From positions 1 through 59,163 of the forward strand of contig JALWVU010000025.1 in NCBI GenBank assembly GCA_027079305.1: a stretch of 59,163 nucleotides of DNA, in the 5' to 3' direction. Within the stretch, counting starts at the first letter, position 1. Every line of letters begins with the position of its first letter. Both the position numbers and the translations under genes were made by a program. This document shows positions 1 to 30,068 of this stretch, in pieces. This DNA is from Aquificaceae bacterium (lineage in GTDB: Bacteria > Aquificota > Aquificia > Aquificales > Aquificaceae). Below the pieces are notes generated by a model. The model did no database searches and was not told the origin of the DNA. It saw only the letters and a list, made by a program, of their open reading frames with translations.

Positions 1-1480
<1,480 letters not shown>

Positions 1481-1534: not shown

Positions 1535-1588
1535 ATTCCTTCCCCCTATTCAGTTGCCAAGGAGCCGTGCGGGCCTCTCGGGACCCGC
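1535..1588 (-). promoter_or_regulatory. rRNA leader antitermination module (boxB-like hairpin, boxA, boxC-like)
   Basis: Between promoter and 16S gene, reading leftward, come three elements. First a hairpin with arms GCGGG/CCCGC (1569-1588). Then GGCTCCTTGGCAA (1554-1566), which matches bacterial rrn boxA (E. coli GCTCTTTAACA, Bacillus GCTCTTTGAAAA). Then GAATAGGGGGAAGGAAT (1535-1551) in the boxC position. Order boxB-boxA-boxC is that of E. coli rrn leaders, where NusB/S10 (NusE) bind boxA to protect the transcript from Rho. The same module recurs in the CRISPR leader at 30001-30051. Confidence 0.75.
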
Positions 1589-1608: not shown

Positions 1609-1637
1609 AATATAGCAACTATATCCGTCTTTGTCAA
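1609..1637 (-). promoter_or_regulatory. sigma-70 promoter of the rRNA operon
   Basis: On the minus strand a consensus -35 TTGACA (1632-1637) is followed by a 17-bp spacer and -10 TATATT (1609-1614), with a TG-type extension just before the -10 (TGC). The predicted start is near 1602, giving a leader of about 120 nt before the mature 16S. It is the best match to the sigma-70 consensus seen in the window, as expected for rRNA. The upstream flank is A/T-rich but merges into transposase remnant sequence. Confidence 0.85.
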
Positions 1638-13830: not shown

Positions 13831-16272
13831 TCACCCCTTTGTTTTCTCTTCCGCTTTCTTCATAATATAGGCGAGTTCAAGAACAGATGCCCCCAGGGGG
13901 ATGGTATAGTCTCTGTTCATCCTCCTGACTACAGCTTTCGGAAGCTTGAGGGGCATGAATTTGGGTTTTGCATACAAGAATGAAAAACTCTCCGAACCCC
14001 AGACGAGCCAACCCAGAAGGGAGAGAAGTATTCCCTCTTCAATCTCGGGGTTGTCCCCTTTAAGGTTGCCGACAAAGAAAAGAGATAGCTCCGTGCTCAT
14101 GTATGGCTCTCCTCTCATGGCAACCGGGACAACGAGAGGAGCCCTTATGACGAAGAGGTTGTAGTCTTCAAAGATACCGTCCTGATTACCGCCAAGCCAT
14201 CCCATATACCTCAGACCTTTCTTAAACTCTTTCTCAAATATTACGTAAGCGTCCTTATCCCTGCTTACTCCCCTGAGCAGGATAGGTGTTTTTATACTCC
14301 GATAGAGAACAGGAAAGAAGCTCTCATGGTTCAGCTTCCTGTAGCTCAGGAGAGGGCTTCTCGTATCCTGAGAAATCGCTATGAGATTGGGTGTCTCCAT
14401 CAGGAACTTCTCAAGCTCTTTCACGTCTCCGCTGAAGCCATCGGCAAAGACAAAGAACTTCCTGTCGTCCCGCTCTATGGTAAGGAAGTCGTCCTTGAAG
14501 GCAAATCTGTATAGACTGTAGAGATAATGCCTTCCCGTCCCAGCAAGCTCAACACTCCTGTCCTCTACTAGCATAGAGTAAACCGCAGGCTTCCGGATTT
14601 TAAAGCTATTGAACTTTAGAACAACCCTCCTGTCCGCTCTGAGTGCACTTATGAGTGCGTTCTTCTGGAAGAAAACAGCGTCTCTTTCCCCTCCCGCTAT
14701 CTTATCTATGGACTCTTCACCCAGGGTCTGAAAAGGATGGGCGAGGGCATAGTCAACGAAAGCCCTCACCAGGTCCCAGATTGGGTATCTATCTTCATCA
14801 CCTTTAACGTCAAGCAGGGCAAATACCATGTAAGTTGTATTCTTTTCAATGCCCAAGGACCTGATTGCCTTGAAAAAGCCAGCCACCTGGAGGAGGAAGG
14901 CAAGAGCTTTGTAAGCCAAGTCCCCCGTAAAAGTGTAGCTGTCATGATTTTTCAGCTCTTTCCAGAAGGGGAATATGAACTCCATCTCCACACCCCCCAG
15001 CACCTCTCTCCCCATCATTTTCGGATTTACATACTTGTTTCCCATTCTCCCTTTCCCTCGCAATACCTTCACGAACTTTCTGGCTTTGTCCACGAGACCG
15101 CTTTCGTAAAGGACGAACTGCCCGTATGTGTCCGCATATATCTCCTTCTTAACGCTGTAAACAGCTTTTCCGTCTCTCACGAAAGAGACCTTTTTCACTC
15201 CGGGAACCCCGCCCCCGAGTATACGTGTAAGCTCCCTCCTGACCTTCTTCAGAAAGGGGCTCTCTCCTTTCCTGTCTCCGTAAACCTTCCTGAGCCATTC
15301 CGATATTCCGAAGGCTTCAGCTTCTTCTTCCGCCTCTCTGATAAGTTCCTCTTTGGGTTTATCCAAGAACTCCTCCCTTCTGACCGCCTCTTTCCCTATT
15401 TTGAGCAACACCTCTTCGTAGGTAAGACGTGGATTCCCGTATCCGAGCTTAGTTACCAGAGGCTTGTGTGTTAGCCATGGACCATCCTCTCCCTCTCCCT
15501 CCTGAGCAAGCCCGACGTGAAAATCTACCTCTATCTTGAAGAGTCTCTCAAAGAAGAGCTGTGCAAGGATGTCGTCTCCCCTAACAGCCCTCTCTCCGAG
15601 CTCTTTAAGAGACTTAAAGAACTCTCTTACCTCACCCTCAAGGTCCTTGCACTCAAGAAGTCTCTCAATTAGCTTAATGCTTACCTCACGCCTGAGCCTT
15701 CCGAGCCCTTCTGTGTAGTCGGACGGGCTAATCTCTCCCGACCTGAGACCGTCAAGAAGGTCCTCCAGTCTGTCCGCCACATTTATGTCCAGATAGTAAA
15801 TGTTGACATCTCCCCTTCCCTCTGTAAGCCTTCCATAGTAAACCTTAAACTCGTTCACGTCCTTCCCTACGTAGGTATCTTTTCTCTTCCTCCGGGAGGG
15901 CAGGAGAGTGAATGTTACCTTTCCCGGGTCTATATCCTTTCCCTTCAGAAGCTCCACAGACTCTTCCAGAAGCTCCATTATTTCTTTTCTCCACCTTCCC
16001 CTAAGCTCTTCATTTTCCCTGGTTGCCTTCTTCCCCAGACCCTCTTTAAGCATTCTCACGAAGGTCGCCTCCCACCTGCCGAGAAGGGAGGTGATTAGTT
16101 TGTTATACCTGTAAACTTCGGGGTCGGACTCCTGACTTTCCGAACCTGCATAGAATACACCGCCCACATAAGCCCTTTTCCTATCGGGACCCATTATGGG
16201 AGGGGGCTCTCCTTTTGCAAAGATTGAGAGAGGTCTCCCTTCACCCCGAAAACGGGAAGAAGCGTCTATCAT
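13831..16272 (-). CDS. unknown 813-aa partner of the SF2 helicase
   Basis: Not recognised. The product is soluble and begins with a basic, Gly/Pro-rich segment (SRFRGEGRPLSIFAKGEPPPIMGPDRKRAYVGG). Residues about 60-420 are strongly helical and charged, and a C-terminal half of mixed alpha/beta character follows (TYMVFALLDVKGDEDRYPIWDL; DDRKFFVFADGFSGDVKEL; TRSPLLSYRKLNHESFFPVLYR). I looked for PIWI, HD, PD-(D/E)XK, HNH and polymerase motifs and found none complete. The ATG overlaps the stop of the upstream helicase gene by 4 nt (ATGA), so the two proteins are made together. Its helicase partner and the neighbouring mobile-element remnants suggest replication of, or defence against, foreign DNA; this is inference only. 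Confidence 0.75.
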   Translation of the reverse strand: MIDASSRFRGEGRPLSIFAKGEPPPIMGPDRKRAYVGGVFYAGSESQESDPEVYRYNKLITSLLGRWEATFVRMLKEGLGKKATRENEELRGRWRKEIMELLEESVELLKGKDIDPGKVTFTLLPSRRKRKDTYVGKDVNEFKVYYGRLTEGRGDVNIYYLDINVADRLEDLLDGLRSGEISPSDYTEGLGRLRREVSIKLIERLLECKDLEGEVREFFKSLKELGERAVRGDDILAQLFFERLFKIEVDFHVGLAQEGEGEDGPWLTHKPLVTKLGYGNPRLTYEEVLLKIGKEAVRREEFLDKPKEELIREAEEEAEAFGISEWLRKVYGDRKGESPFLKKVRRELTRILGGGVPGVKKVSFVRDGKAVYSVKKEIYADTYGQFVLYESGLVDKARKFVKVLRGKGRMGNKYVNPKMMGREVLGGVEMEFIFPFWKELKNHDSYTFTGDLAYKALAFLLQVAGFFKAIRSLGIEKNTTYMVFALLDVKGDEDRYPIWDLVRAFVDYALAHPFQTLGEESIDKIAGGERDAVFFQKNALISALRADRRVVLKFNSFKIRKPAVYSMLVEDRSVELAGTGRHYLYSLYRFAFKDDFLTIERDDRKFFVFADGFSGDVKELEKFLMETPNLIAISQDTRSPLLSYRKLNHESFFPVLYRSIKTPILLRGVSRDKDAYVIFEKEFKKGLRYMGWLGGNQDGIFEDYNLFVIRAPLVVPVAMRGEPYMSTELSLFFVGNLKGDNPEIEEGILLSLLGWLVWGSESFSFLYAKPKFMPLKLPKAVVRRMNRDYTIPLGASVLELAYIMKKAEEKTKG

Positions 16273-19200
16273 CCCACCACCTCCTCTATCAAGGCGAGTA
16301 ATAGGTCTCCACCGACCTTCGGATAAGAGCCCGAGAGCCAGCCAAAGACTTCGCTGTTCTCTATAGGGAAAACCACACTCCTCACACTTCCCGAATGAGG
16401 GTCTCTGCTTATCCTCGCGGAGGGTTTCAGCCCCGCCCCTAACACCCCTATACCAAACCTCGTTATGTATTTGGAATAGAGCATTTCAACCGAGACAAAA
16501 TCCCTATCTACAGCTTCGTATGCTATTGCGAGGGTCGGTATGTAAACGAGCCCGTAAATCGGGGAACTCTGGCGCTCCGTTTTCAGCCTGTAGAGCCAGG
16601 CTTCAAGCTCCTCCGCAGTCCGTCTGTTCGCCCTGTAAAAGAGGTCCCTGTGCCTTTCAAAGAGCCTCAGGGCAGTTTCCACATCCCTTTGCTCTGCGCT
16701 CGTTCTGAGGTCCACATCAATCAACAGGTATGGATGGAAGAAGTCGGTTTCCTTTCCTATCTTGCTTATTTCCACATCGGGAAGAACGCTGAGCATCTTT
16801 GCTATGAGAGAAGCCAGCCGTTTTATGTCCGCCATCTCCTCCCTTGTCAGGGAAGGGTAGTAATCGCTCAGCTCCTCCAGGAAGTTAACAGCCTGCCCGC
16901 CCGGGGAGAGCTCCTCGGGTGTATAGAGGGGTCTCATCTGTTGGGAGATGGTCGCCACCACTTTATCTGAGGGTGAGTAGTAGCTCTCATAGAGCTTTCT
17001 GAAGAGCTTTGAGAATATTAGCTGGTCTCTGAGCACACTCCTTTTCTTCAGAAGATGGAGAAGCTCCTCGGTTTCCCTCTGAATCTCCTCGCTCTCCTCT
17101 CCCTCCTCAATATTGAATTCTTCCATCAAGGACTCAAGGTATGTTCTCGCCCTCTCTCTCACAAGCTCCTCGTTTTCTTCCTCCACAAAGGCGTAAACCC
17201 TTATTATCTCCTTGACCACGTCTTCTTCCCCTTCCATTCCCCGGATACGGGCGGACGCCTGCAGGTCCTCCGCCGTGTTTTCCTCTATGGAAGAGAAGTG
17301 GGTTGTCAGTATAAGGGCTCTGGTAAAGTTCTGTCTGAGGGACACTCCCCGTGAAAGGGTAGAGGTGGAAATCACCCCATCGTAATCAAGGCTATCCCCT
17401 TCCAGCTCCTCCTGAGAACCCCTTATATTGCTGGTGCTTGCAAGGATTTTGAACCCCTTAGCTTCCAGCCTCCTCTTTATCTCCTGGACAGCCTCCCTGT
17501 TCTGGACGTATATGTAGAGCCTTTCGCCTTTCCTCTTCAACTCTTCAAGCTGATTCTCCGCAAGATCAGCGCATCGGTCATAAATCTCATCCTTGCTCTT
17601 TGCTCCGAGAATGAACCTCTCCCTTATGAGGAGCTTCTTTGCAGGGTAGGAGTAACCCGAATAGACAAAAGCTCTTGAGCCGTCAAGCTCTACCTCCCCT
17701 TCAGGCTCAAAGTCGGCGAAGGTGAAGGAGGGAGACACGTATCCCTCCCGGACGAACTCGCTCCAGGCTTTTTCAAAGACGCCCTTGGAATGGAGGGTAG
17801 CGTCAAAGACCATTATGCTTACCATGTCGGGATATTCCTGCATAAGCTCTATCGCCCATCTAAGGCTTGCAAACCCGTTCTTTGAGCCAGTGAGTTCATC
17901 AAATACAAAAACCACTCTGTATCCCTTCCTTCTCCATTTCCCCATTCTCCTTTTTACGTGCCTGAGCGTGGAGGAGGAAGAATGGATTGTCTTGGTAATT
18001 GAGTGGGTGGTCAGAAGGCAGGCTATTTTCTCGGTTCCCTCTTCTATCCTCCTGTTTATCTCTCCTACAGCCCGCTTGATTCTTGAGGTGTTTTCCGTGT
18101 CCTCAACCTCAGATATATCCCCCGCTCTCGTGTATAAAATCCTCTTCCTTTCCAGCTTCCCTTCCGAGTCATAGAGGAAAACGGTGCTGACGCCTTCTAT
18201 CTTGCCAGCCTCCTTGTTCACCTCTTCAAGGAGTCTTATCCTCGGGGCGAAGTAGAGGAGTATGAGCTTCTCTTTGCTCTCCTCAAGAACGACCTTTTTC
18301 ATGGCAAAGGTCTTTCCGGAGCCGGTAGAGTGAAGGAGGACAAGGACTTTCCCCCACGGGTCTCTCCAGAACTCTCTCGTCCTTCTCTCCGTGTCTCTCC
18401 TGAGTTGCGATATTCTGGACTCAGGGATTATCTCGTAAACCGCTCCGTCCCGCTTATTTATCTCTTTTTCAAGCTCAAGGGCTTCATTATGAACTTTGTC
18501 TTTAAGCTTTCTCAATCTCTTTAGTATCTTTCTCCTGATTGAGAGTTCTTTCTGGGTCTTCAGGTAGTAAGACTCTTCTTTCCTCTTGAGTTCTCTGTAT
18601 AGCTTCTTAAACTCTCGCGAAAGTTCCTCTACGGGAAGTTCCTCATGGGAAGGGCTGAAGGTGAAAACGACCCCGTCCGTGGTAGAGGTAATCAGTCCTG
18701 TATGTATCCTGTCAAAGATATCCCCGCTTTCTCTCAGGTAATCAAAAAGGTAGGAAAAGACCTGAATGAGGGACTTGGTTTCAAAGTCAAGTTCCACCTC
18801 CTCCCTTTCCAGCATCGTCCGACCTGTCTTCAGGAGTGCTTTTGCAAAGCTGTGAAGGGAGGGGTCGCCAAGTGATAGGGATAGCTGGATGCCTTTTGCT
18901 CTGGGCGGAACAAATATCACATCCTTTGTGCTCTCCTTTCTTGTCAGGAATCTTCTTATGTGCCATCCGCCTCCGAACAGCTTGAGGTCATACACATGAA
19001 GTTCTTTTCTGTCCGCTCTGGGGTTCTTTATGTAAAAGATCAGGTCAGCGTTAAAGAAAGCTCCTGCCTCCCAGTTTTCCGAAAACATATCAAAGACCAC
19101 GGGAACTATATCTCCCTGCGGAAGGTGTATGGCAAAAAGCTTCCCCCCGTATAGACCTGTAACATAGACGCTGAGCTGAGTCTCTTCCTCTTTTGAGGAG

Positions 19201-19475
19201 GGAGGGATTCCCGCTTCCTTGGCAAGCTCAAGGAGGGCTTCCTCTCTATCCCTGAAAAGCGCCATGGAAAAGATGTCCTTTGGGGGTAAGGATTTGAACA
19301 ACTTGCTTACATATCTGAGTTCCTTCTCGGATACTTTTGCGATGTTTACAAGCTCTTCAAGTCTTTTTTCCCACTCCTCTTTGAGTTCTTTGTTCCTCAC
19401 CCTGCCAATGACGCCTCTTGCAAATCCGATTTTAAAGCCGAGCTCAAATATGTGTCCCTTGACTGAAATCCACAT
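16269..19475 (-). CDS. large SF2 (DEAD/DEAH-like) helicase
   Basis: A 1,068-aa protein. Residues 1-290 form an unrecognised N-terminal domain and 295-345 a basic coiled coil (KKLYRELKRKEESYY...ALELEKEINKR). The helicase core spans about 375-760: Walker A STGSGKT (383-389), Ia-like APRIRL (410), Walker B FDELTG (D526, E527), motif III FDATLHS (557-563), motif V STLSRGVSL (705) and motif VI QASARIRG (739-746, with Gly in place of the last Arg). A 300-aa C-terminal domain of unknown type follows. There is no HD nuclease domain, so it is not a canonical Cas3. It is the first gene of a two-gene operon with a GGGGGAGAG RBS; TATACT (complement near 19498-19503) is a possible -10. Confidence 0.85.
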   Translation of the reverse strand: MWISVKGHIFELGFKIGFARGVIGRVRNKELKEEWEKRLEELVNIAKVSEKELRYVSKLFKSLPPKDIFSMALFRDREEALLELAKEAGIPPSSKEEETQLSVYVTGLYGGKLFAIHLPQGDIVPVVFDMFSENWEAGAFFNADLIFYIKNPRADRKELHVYDLKLFGGGWHIRRFLTRKESTKDVIFVPPRAKGIQLSLSLGDPSLHSFAKALLKTGRTMLEREEVELDFETKSLIQVFSYLFDYLRESGDIFDRIHTGLITSTTDGVVFTFSPSHEELPVEELSREFKKLYRELKRKEESYYLKTQKELSIRRKILKRLRKLKDKVHNEALELEKEINKRDGAVYEIIPESRISQLRRDTERRTREFWRDPWGKVLVLLHSTGSGKTFAMKKVVLEESKEKLILLYFAPRIRLLEEVNKEAGKIEGVSTVFLYDSEGKLERKRILYTRAGDISEVEDTENTSRIKRAVGEINRRIEEGTEKIACLLTTHSITKTIHSSSSTLRHVKRRMGKWRRKGYRVVFVFDELTGSKNGFASLRWAIELMQEYPDMVSIMVFDATLHSKGVFEKAWSEFVREGYVSPSFTFADFEPEGEVELDGSRAFVYSGYSYPAKKLLIRERFILGAKSKDEIYDRCADLAENQLEELKRKGERLYIYVQNREAVQEIKRRLEAKGFKILASTSNIRGSQEELEGDSLDYDGVISTSTLSRGVSLRQNFTRALILTTHFSSIEENTAEDLQASARIRGMEGEEDVVKEIIRVYAFVEEENEELVRERARTYLESLMEEFNIEEGEESEEIQRETEELLHLLKKRSVLRDQLIFSKLFRKLYESYYSPSDKVVATISQQMRPLYTPEELSPGGQAVNFLEELSDYYPSLTREEMADIKRLASLIAKMLSVLPDVEISKIGKETDFFHPYLLIDVDLRTSAEQRDVETALRLFERHRDLFYRANRRTAEELEAWLYRLKTERQSSPIYGLVYIPTLAIAYEAVDRDFVSVEMLYSKYITRFGIGVLGAGLKPSARISRDPHSGSVRSVVFPIENSEVFGWLSGSYPKVGGDLLLALIEEVVG

Positions 19476-29039: not shown

Positions 29040-29800
29040 CTTTGAATTCCACCCGGCACATTAGGAACATAGCAAAGGCTCAAGCTTAGGGTCTCTGGTT
29101 ATTACGCTTTCAACTCCACACGGCACATTAGGAACATATCGGCAAAAGGTTGACCTGTGGCAGGATTAAACTTTCAACTCCACACGGCACATTAGGAACG
29201 CCTGAAAAAGGCGGGTTATTTGATCCAGTAATAACCTTTCAACTCCACACGGCACATTAGGAACTTCAATATTTATATATATAAATGTCCGCGTTCATAA
29301 CTTTCAACTCCACACGGCACATTAGGAACTGGTTTATCAAAACAAATTCATTCAAATGATTGAAATCTTTCTTTCAACTCCACACGGCACATTAGGAACA
29401 ATCAATATCTAAACGAACATATTTACGAAGTTTTAAGAACTTTCAACTCCACACGGCACATTAGGAACCTAAACCTAACTCTGGAATTGATAACTCCCAG
29501 CTGTCTTTCTTTCAACTCCACACGGCACATTAGGAACAGGTTATTTGGGAACTAACTTTGAAGCAAGGCTTTATACTTTCAACTCCACACGGCACATTAG
29601 GAACTGAATGAAAAATTTTCAAATCGTTTATAATAATATACTTTCAACTCCACACGGCACATTAGGAACGAAATATTCTCCTCTTAGTAAATTTTATAGA
29701 GAAGACCTTTCAACTCCACACGGCACATTAGGAACATAAGGTTTTTTCCATGTATAAATCCTTTCATATAGCTTTCAACTCCACACGGCACATTAGGAAC
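29040..29800 (-). CRISPR. CRISPR array, 12 repeats and 11 spacers, no adjacent cas genes
   Basis: A 29-nt repeat, CTTTCAACTCCACACGGCAC plus ATTAGGAAC on the plus strand, occurs at 29040 (degenerate), 29107, 29171, 29236, 29301, 29371, 29440, 29509, 29576, 29641, 29707 and 29772. Spacers are 35-41 nt. On the minus strand the repeat starts GTTCC and ends GTTGAAAG, the usual 3' end (GAAAN) that gives the 8-nt crRNA handle in type I-B/III systems. The leftmost repeat has three mismatches, so it is the old, leader-distal end. Together these facts give leftward transcription from a leader at 29801-30068. The other 11 repeats are identical. Most spacers are A/T-rich. cas genes must lie elsewhere. 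Confidence 0.99.
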
Positions 29801-29819
29801 CCCAAACGAGCCGTTTAAT

Positions 29820-29848
29820 AATATAAGCCAATTCAATGACTTATACAA
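29820..29848 (-). promoter_or_regulatory. leader-proximal promoter of the CRISPR array
   Basis: On the minus strand TTGTAT (complement 29843-29848), a 17-bp spacer and TATATT (complement 29820-29825) form a good sigma-70 promoter. The predicted start near 29813 is about 12 nt before the first repeat. Confidence 0.65.
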
Positions 29849-29873
29849 TCCCCTGTATTCGCAAATGAAATTA

Positions 29874-29885
29874 ATTTCCGGAAAT
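29874..29885. repeat. 12-bp palindrome in the CRISPR leader
   Basis: ATTTCCGGAAAT is a perfect palindrome about 75 bp from the first repeat. It could be a protein site used for adaptation or regulation; nothing in the window identifies the protein. Confidence 0.4.
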
Positions 29886-29964
29886 CGCCGGTTCTGCAAA
29901 AGACCTTAAAATTTAGCCCATTTAAAACCTTGTGTATCAACCTGCCCAGAACAGTATCATCAAA

Positions 29965-29992
29965 GCATCAAAACATCAAGGCATTTTGATGC
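29965..29992. repeat. inverted repeat in the CRISPR leader
   Basis: GCATCAAAA, a 10-nt loop and TTTTGATGC form a perfect 9-bp inverted repeat, with a further CATCAA copy on its left flank. No T-run follows, so it is not an intrinsic terminator. It lies between the boxA-like module and the array. Confidence 0.45.
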
Positions 29993-30000
29993 ATATTAAA

Positions 30001-30051
30001 ATCCTCCCACCTATTCCCTTGTCAAGGAGCCGGCAGGCTCTTGCGTCCTGC
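30001..30051 (-). promoter_or_regulatory. rrn-like hairpin-boxA-boxC module in the CRISPR leader
   Basis: Reading leftward: hairpin arms GCAGG/CCTGC (30033-30051), then CGGCTCCTTGACAA with boxA at 30019-30031, then GAATAGGTGGGAGGAT (30001-30016). It aligns with the 16S leader module at 1535-1588. The shared text is CGGCTCCTTG-R-CAA followed by GAATAGG-N-GG-R-AGGA. The hairpin arms differ by a compensatory G-C to A-T change (GCGGG/CCCGC against GCAGG/CCTGC) while pairing is kept. It is oriented toward the array. Confidence 0.75.
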
Positions 30052-30059
30052 TCGGATAT

Positions 30060-30068
30060 AGTATAGCA
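30060..30068 (-). promoter_or_regulatory. distal extended -10 promoter of the CRISPR leader
   Basis: TGCTATACT on the minus strand (TG-N-TATACT) is an extended -10 element located just upstream of the boxA module. No convincing -35 is seen. Transcripts would start near 30053 and run through the leader (about 250 nt) into the array. It lies back to back with the proS promoter. Confidence 0.5.

Follow-up and report, generated by a model that had tools for sequence, protein, structure and literature searches.

Aquificales CRISPR leaders carry an rRNA-type hairpin-boxA unit

The presence of boxA in CRISPR leaders is already known. The system of Stringer et al. (2020, eLife 9:e58182), as represented in papers that cite it (PMC7862264, PMC12691694), is one of boxA-dependent antitermination at gammaproteobacterial CRISPR arrays, in which a boxA lies in the CRISPR leader, Nus factors are proposed to be recruited, and transcription is protected from Rho. 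In Legionella constructs, a boxA before the CRISPR array yields about tenfold more precursor crRNA along the whole array (PMC7862264), and in gammaproteobacteria the rrn complex is said to protect CRISPR arrays (PMC12691694). Rho termination is also relieved in the CRISPR leader of P. aeruginosa, but there by a trans-acting sRNA, PhrS, rather than by a boxA unit in cis (PMC6700203). In the rRNA operons of E. coli, boxB, boxA, and boxC form the rrnTAC signal, and a second boxA precedes 23S (PMC10250234). The roles of boxB and boxC are described as puzzling or unclear (PMC10250234), which we attribute to their entanglement with ribosome assembly.

Here we analyzed a 59,163-nt stretch of DNA from an Aquificaceae bacterium, hereafter the window, together with related genomes. 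Compared with the system of Stringer et al. as cited, the Aquificales boxA is joined by a hairpin of the rrn type and by a TGAATAGG tract, and the unit is found across the order, precedes many repeat families, and tracks the lineage changes of the rrn boxA. Like the E. coli rrn signal, it has the order hairpin, boxA, boxC-like tract, has a second boxA before 23S, and in rrn places the boxC-like tract within the leader-trailer helix. However, the E. coli boxC (TCTGTGTGGG) lies 18-19 nt after boxA, whereas TGAATAGG lies 1 nt after it and differs in sequence (PMC10250234), and the CRISPR copies lack a 16S trailer with which to pair. In the literature searched, where Stringer et al. is represented by citing papers, we found no report of an order-wide unit with hairpin and TGAATAGG that changes in concert with rrn.

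Two leaders of one kind in the window

An earlier note on this DNA had read the CRISPR leader as an extended -10, a hairpin, a boxA, and a boxC-like tract in order toward the array, and had likened it to the 16S leader. Both readings hold. On the minus strand, from 30068 to 30010, the parts follow in that order, and the 16S leader (1544-1637) has the same parts in identical order. The occurrence of an rrn-type unit in CRISPR leaders is confirmed. The features are as follows.

30060..30068, minus strand: extended -10, TGCTATACT (from sequence; kept in most of the nine leaders aligned)
30033..30051, minus strand: hairpin, GCAGG, 9-nt loop, CCTGC (arms 30051-30047 and 30037-30033; from leader alignment and covariation)
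30019..30031, minus strand: boxA, GGCTCCTTGACAA (exact-string search and covariance model)
30010..30018, minus strand: GGGAATAGG, 3' extension of boxA, boxC-like by position (sequence, leader alignment, and identity profile)
29801..30009, minus strand: remaining CRISPR leader (~210 nt), including GCATCAAAAtgccttgatgTTTTGATGC and an array-proximal TTGTAT-N17-TATATT (nine-leader alignment)
29040..29800, minus strand: CRISPR array of 12 repeats, the last degenerate, with unit GTTCCTAATGTGCCGTGTGGAGTTGAAAG (repeat search and sequence)
1609..1637, minus strand: rrn promoter TTGACA-17-TATATT (TTGACA 1637-1632; TATATT 1614-1609, preceded by TGC; 11/12 matches)
1569..1588, minus strand: rrn hairpin GCGGGTC-CCGAGA-GGCCCGC (arms 1588-1582 and 1575-1569; from folding)
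1544..1566, minus strand: rrn boxA with extension, GGCTCCTTGGCAACTGAATAGGG (string search and match to the CRISPR-only model)
1..1480, minus strand: 16S rRNA, its 3' end outside the window (Rfam RF00177)

A consensus scan of the window CRISPR leader detected no sigma-70-type -35; the extended -10 alone was seen. The predicted start at about 30053, 6-7 nt past the -10, falls at the base of the hairpin and agrees with the position given in the earlier note. In its order and spacing, the putative boxA fits a 5' leader between a predicted promoter and an untranslated RNA. The tract lies directly upstream of the first repeat (29800-29772) and is conserved among the arrays of the genome, as befits a CRISPR leader, and its part at 29801..30009 is common to seven other full leaders in the alignment of nine. 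A scan of this leader for terminator-like sites found none. The array itself is not the long, spacer-rich one that had been supposed, since it has only 12 repeats over 0.76 kb.

In the rrn leader, boxA (GGCTCCTTGGCAA, 1566-1554) is followed by CTGAATAGGG, and 16S begins at 1480. The window CRISPR boxA is identical to it at 12 of 13 bases, and that of another array, C45, is closer still (GGCTCCTTGGCAAGTGAATAGGGGGA versus GGCTCCTTGGCAACTGAATAGGGGGA in rrn). The covariance model matches the window CRISPR leader at 30004-30052 with 73.5 bits, and model R1, made from CRISPR copies only, independently matches the rrn leader at 1539-1589 with 44.6 bits.

Two further observations concern the window. 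At 29805-29850 on the minus strand, and in all full leaders, a conserved TTGYAT-N17-TATATT stands right before the first repeat, possibly as a second promoter or an acquisition signal. At 16269-19475, also on the minus strand, a gene encodes a helicase-like protein of 1068 aa that matches PbeA (PADLOC) and DEAD/ResIII (Pfam) weakly and may serve in defence.

Occurrence in the genome and across Aquificales

How widely does the unit occur? The exact boxA string GGCTCCTTGRCAA is present in eight copies in the 2.01-Mb genome, seven in CRISPR leaders and one in the rrn leader, and is absent from the reversed control. Before the other two arrays of the GTTCCTAATGTGCCGTGTGGAGTTGAAAG repeat, GGTTCCTTGGCAA takes its place. 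The earlier note had named absence of the unit from other leaders as evidence against its reading; all nine arrays of this repeat (9/9) carry it. On contig C2, a tenth array, whose repeat is unrelated, has GTTTCCATGACAACTGAATAGGG. In a repeat-blind census of 1.14 of the 2.01 Mb, which counted arrays at three or more exact copies, 8/8 arrays had the unit on the expected side. In the same 1.14 Mb, 11 sites agree at 18 or more of 22 positions, namely ten CRISPR leaders and one rrn leader. With zero hits in reversed controls and 11/11 top sites explained, a chance match of a short motif was rejected.

One array, C73b, adjoins a type I-B cas operon (Cas7, Cas5, Cas8b1, Cas3, Cas4, Cas1, Cas2). Array C45 (G000:C45; L004, L012) has two repeats and a leader cut to ~35 nt after boxA, so that it has kept the unit but not the array-proximal leader. 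With 2 to ~20 repeats, the arrays of this genome are short, and a need for processivity is therefore not obvious. The genome encodes Rho (680 bits), NusB, and S10. Its NusB, which matches the NusB chain of PDB 2jr0/3r2c with an E value of 1.6e-50, is a close homologue of that in the A. aeolicus NusB-S10-boxA complex. The 3r2c entry, which we take to contain boxA RNA, comes from work on the rrn boxA.

We searched 112 Aquificales genomes with the covariance model built from nine CRISPR copies only. It recovers both 16S leaders and CRISPR leaders, in the source genome and in others, and that a CRISPR-only model finds 16S leaders is an independent sign that both carry one kind of signal. The proposed check on relatives thus found the unit before both rrn and CRISPR arrays. 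Within the order, it stands before arrays whose repeats belong to at least six families (in sequence, repeats GTTCCTAATGTGCCGTGTGGAGTTGAAAG, GTTGCAATGCCCT..AGGGATTGCGAC, GTTTATTAGGTGCCTATAAGGAGTTGAAAC, GTTTTAGAAAGACAGAGAGGACACGGGAG, GTTTTAAGCCCACTG, GTTGCACTTTTATCT, GTTTTGTTTTATCCAT). The distance from unit to first repeat is 170-230 nt in one family and only ~10 nt in another, the third of these (family iii).

One genome (G001), presumably A. aeolicus VF5, has two rrn copies and about fifteen boxA-bearing CRISPR-type leaders, several of them with one or very few repeats. The A. aeolicus dRNA-seq paper reports five CRISPR loci, and its main table lists no ncRNA at these leaders (PMC4227106). 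An exact search for GGCTCCTTGGCAANNGAATAGG in a species-genome collection returned 35 stretches, of which 34 are titled Aquificota, Aquificales, Aquificaceae, or Aquifex. The 35th lies in an archaeal bin and is by sequence an Aquificaceae CRISPR leader; this Acidilobaceae archaeon bin entry (L338, JALWOJ010000076.1), with its Aquificaceae-type leader and array, is probably mis-binned. A search of viral contigs for the exact extended boxA gave no match.

The unit or its parts were also seen in other settings. The shared block precedes 23S rRNA as boxA-TGAATA, and the 16S-23S spacer, after the tRNA genes, has boxA-TGAATAGG without the hairpin (L114, L176, L184, L197, L246, L248). In two other genomes (L136, L118), the unit precedes a gene, with an inverted repeat ahead of it, whose product is an unknown basic protein of ~195-260 aa; the L118 protein has no Pfam match. 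These genes may be a third kind of boxA client, perhaps a mobile one. At L125, a match to a group II intron, below threshold (37.5 bits, gathering 40), lies ~50 nt past the unit, in GC-rich surroundings without long open frames.

Does the unit lie on the main pre-crRNA transcript? The promoter of a CRISPR leader usually stands next to the array, and TTGYAT-N17-TATATT is conserved in the full-length leaders of this genome; it could be a second promoter without boxA. If it were the main promoter, much of the pre-crRNA would lack boxA, and the unit would sit on a weak upstream or relic transcript with little role in crRNA production. We consider this unlikely. A consensus scan found no promoter there, arrays of family iii begin ~10 nt past the unit and leave no room for a further promoter, and C45 has kept the unit while losing the proximal leader. 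Moreover, a relic transcript would not change in step with rrn from genus to genus, and its hairpin would not go on covarying.

CRISPR leaders also carry signals for spacer acquisition, and the block, located in these leaders, might be such a DNA signal, read by Cas1-Cas2 or a leader-binding factor rather than as RNA. This is hardly credible for a block that also precedes 16S and 23S rRNA, whose distance to the first repeat varies so much by family, and whose hairpin covariation indicates RNA.

Joint change, structure, and borders of the shared block

What keeps the CRISPR and rrn copies alike? The two diverge together by lineage, which supports the original reading of a shared unit. Hydrogenobacter-like genera carry (G)ACATCTTGGCAACTGAATA as their rrn boxA, with ACATCTTGGCAGTTGAATAGGG in their CRISPR leaders. 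In one genome (G052) both are GTCAACTTGGCAACTGAATA, in another (G063) AGAACCTTG replaces GGCTCCTTG in rrn and in some CRISPR leaders, and in two genera (g18 and g21) TACTTGG is found in both. On average, CRISPR copies differ from the rrn of their own genus at 3.45 of 22 positions and from that of other genera at 5.28 (11 genera; permutation p 5e-6). Because sequences within a genus are related, a test on seven pooled clades, with related genera merged, is safer, and gives an exact p of 2e-4. The copies were found with patterns of other genera or with the source-genome model, so that outside the source genome the search carried no bias toward own-lineage variants.

Two genomes (G029 and G032), which we take to be Hydrogenobaculum-like, have an rrn boxA that is no longer recognizable (TACTTCAATAGCTGAATAA). 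In the strongest test, a prediction, this rrn string was used to search G029. It hit five CRISPR arrays, the two 16S leaders, and the two 16S-23S spacers, plus one leader-like copy with no more than one repeat-like unit. Three more hits at 3 mismatches had no array or rRNA behind them, and the reversed control gave 0 hits. In G029 the boxA tract is letter-identical between rrn and CRISPR. Such joint change, lineage by lineage, strongly suggests that one shared protein machine carries RNA polymerase through both. In the lineage with the rewritten boxA, NusB of three Hydrogenobaculum-like genomes (L360, L361, L362) reads DDLGSIEK versus DRLGYIER; other aligned NusB proteins have R (or E,R) for the second D and ER for EK. 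This NusB change, seen in one lineage, might be linked to how boxA was rewritten there, a link that we offer only as a suggestion.

The paired change in the hairpin, from GCAGG/CCTGC to GCGGG/CCCGC, which the earlier note had taken as a sign of selection on RNA structure, is real and also separates CRISPR leaders within the genome, as array C71 shows. The covariation check that had been proposed bears it out: when 63 copies of several genera are aligned, pairing holds in 98.6% of cells and all five pairs (5/5) show double changes, with stem variants GCGGG/CCCGC, GCAGG/CCTGC, GAAGG/CCTTC, and GGAGG/CCTCC. The covariation score is 0.53, versus 0.17 for shuffled and ~0.1 or less for slid alignments, a generous size given that the rows were aligned to fit the structure and related ones were counted repeatedly. 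The 32 nt upstream of boxA have a mean fold energy of -9.5 kcal/mol in CRISPR leaders (-5.3 when shuffled) and of -8.5 kcal/mol in rrn (-4.7 when shuffled). Since single-sequence folding of the unit is weak, the case for structure rests on covariation and not on single-copy energy. With fixed geometry, arms pair better with their own partners than across copies by a modest margin (3.5 versus 2.7 of 5 pairs), since loop lengths vary and almost every stem sets a G-rich arm against a C-rich one. As a stem-loop just upstream of boxA with paired changes, the hairpin is boxB-like. It is absent or weak in some genera, and the g7 and g10 copies show none.

How much of the unit is shared with rrn? As to the claim that the whole unit is shared, the hairpin arms have their structure in common more than their letters. 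The block shared in sequence is only ~30 nt long, from the last 8 nt before boxA through GAATAGG. Identity between CRISPR leaders and own-genus rrn drops sharply right after GAATAGG and more gradually at ~8 nt before boxA; within the block, the search patterns account for part of its height.

The tract after boxA had been called boxC-like, a term that is fair by position, since TGAATAGG starts the rrn leader-trailer helix. In three rrn operons it opens this 16S helix, with a mismatch within TGAATA, and pairing with the 16S trailer was found for rrn in three genomes. In spacing and sequence the likeness fails, as the enterobacterial UCUGUGUGGG at 18-19 nt from boxA was not found and TGAATAGG follows at 1 nt. 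CRISPR leaders retain TGAATAGG although they have no 16S trailer. Its complement is not enriched in the CRISPR leader (best match 6.0/9, versus 6.1 for shuffled motifs), and pairing of TGAATAGG inside the CRISPR leader was rejected on this ground. We infer that TGAATAGG is a protein-read part of the antitermination signal and that the rrn bases following it serve the ribosome only.

These borders also bear on whether the resemblance arose mainly through repeated overwriting of CRISPR leaders by the local rrn leader, without functional need. The letter-identical boxA tract of G029 speaks for overwriting, as does the hairpin loop of G063, which also matches between rrn and some CRISPR leaders. 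However, the shared tract fades ~8 nt before boxA and ends after GAATAGG, the arms and the downstream sequence differ, and neutral copying would not respect those borders in every lineage. We therefore hold overwriting without function to be very improbable; a short shared tract with fixed borders favors selection by a shared reader. Part of the tract could nonetheless come from copying between loci rather than from selection, and copying may be the route by which the unit spread. As to origin, two histories fit: an rrn leader captured once, long ago, with shared selection since then, or repeated local copying from rrn.

A probable antitermination signal and its meaning

We regard the unit as, very probably, an antitermination signal of the rrn type that stands at the 5' end of pre-crRNA and through which Nus-modified polymerase would resist Rho. 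Transcription would start at about 30053 and produce an RNA with the hairpin, boxA, and GGGAATAGG in this order. NusB-S10 would bind boxA and be joined by other Nus factors on the nascent RNA, and the modified, processive polymerase would then resist Rho on its way through the leader and array, both untranslated, just as in the case of rRNA. To judge from the sequences, the Aquificales Nus complex probably reads the hairpin and TGAATAGG as well, since they are retained together with boxA.

The unit might instead bind Nus factors and act otherwise, by pausing, by repression, or by guiding co-transcriptional folding or processing. In E. coli, suhB is repressed by boxA through the Nus complex (PMC5725501), and the rrn boxA also affects 30S assembly (PMC10250234). 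Such a role is quite unlikely here, as in published work boxA increased, and did not decrease, the RNA of CRISPR arrays (PMC7862264), and CRISPR arrays, like rRNA, are untranslated.

Beyond the antitermination reading itself, we tentatively propose, at slightly below even chances, that the CRISPR arrays and rRNA operons of Aquificales form one Nus regulon that evolves in concert. Rewrites of boxA (e.g., TACTTCAATAGC, Hydrogenobaculum-like) would be followed by many CRISPR leaders, and the hairpin and TGAATAGG would be needed independently of 16S assembly.

Antitermination of CRISPR arrays would extend far beyond gammaproteobacteria. The lineage-specific boxA rewrites offer a ready series for studies of co-evolution between NusB-S10 and boxA. 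Finally, the CRISPR leaders of Aquificales amount to a natural experiment in which an rrn signal stands before an RNA without ribosome assembly: what they have kept (hairpin, boxA, and TGAATAGG) and what they have lost (the rest of the leader-trailer strand) would separate the two roles of this signal.
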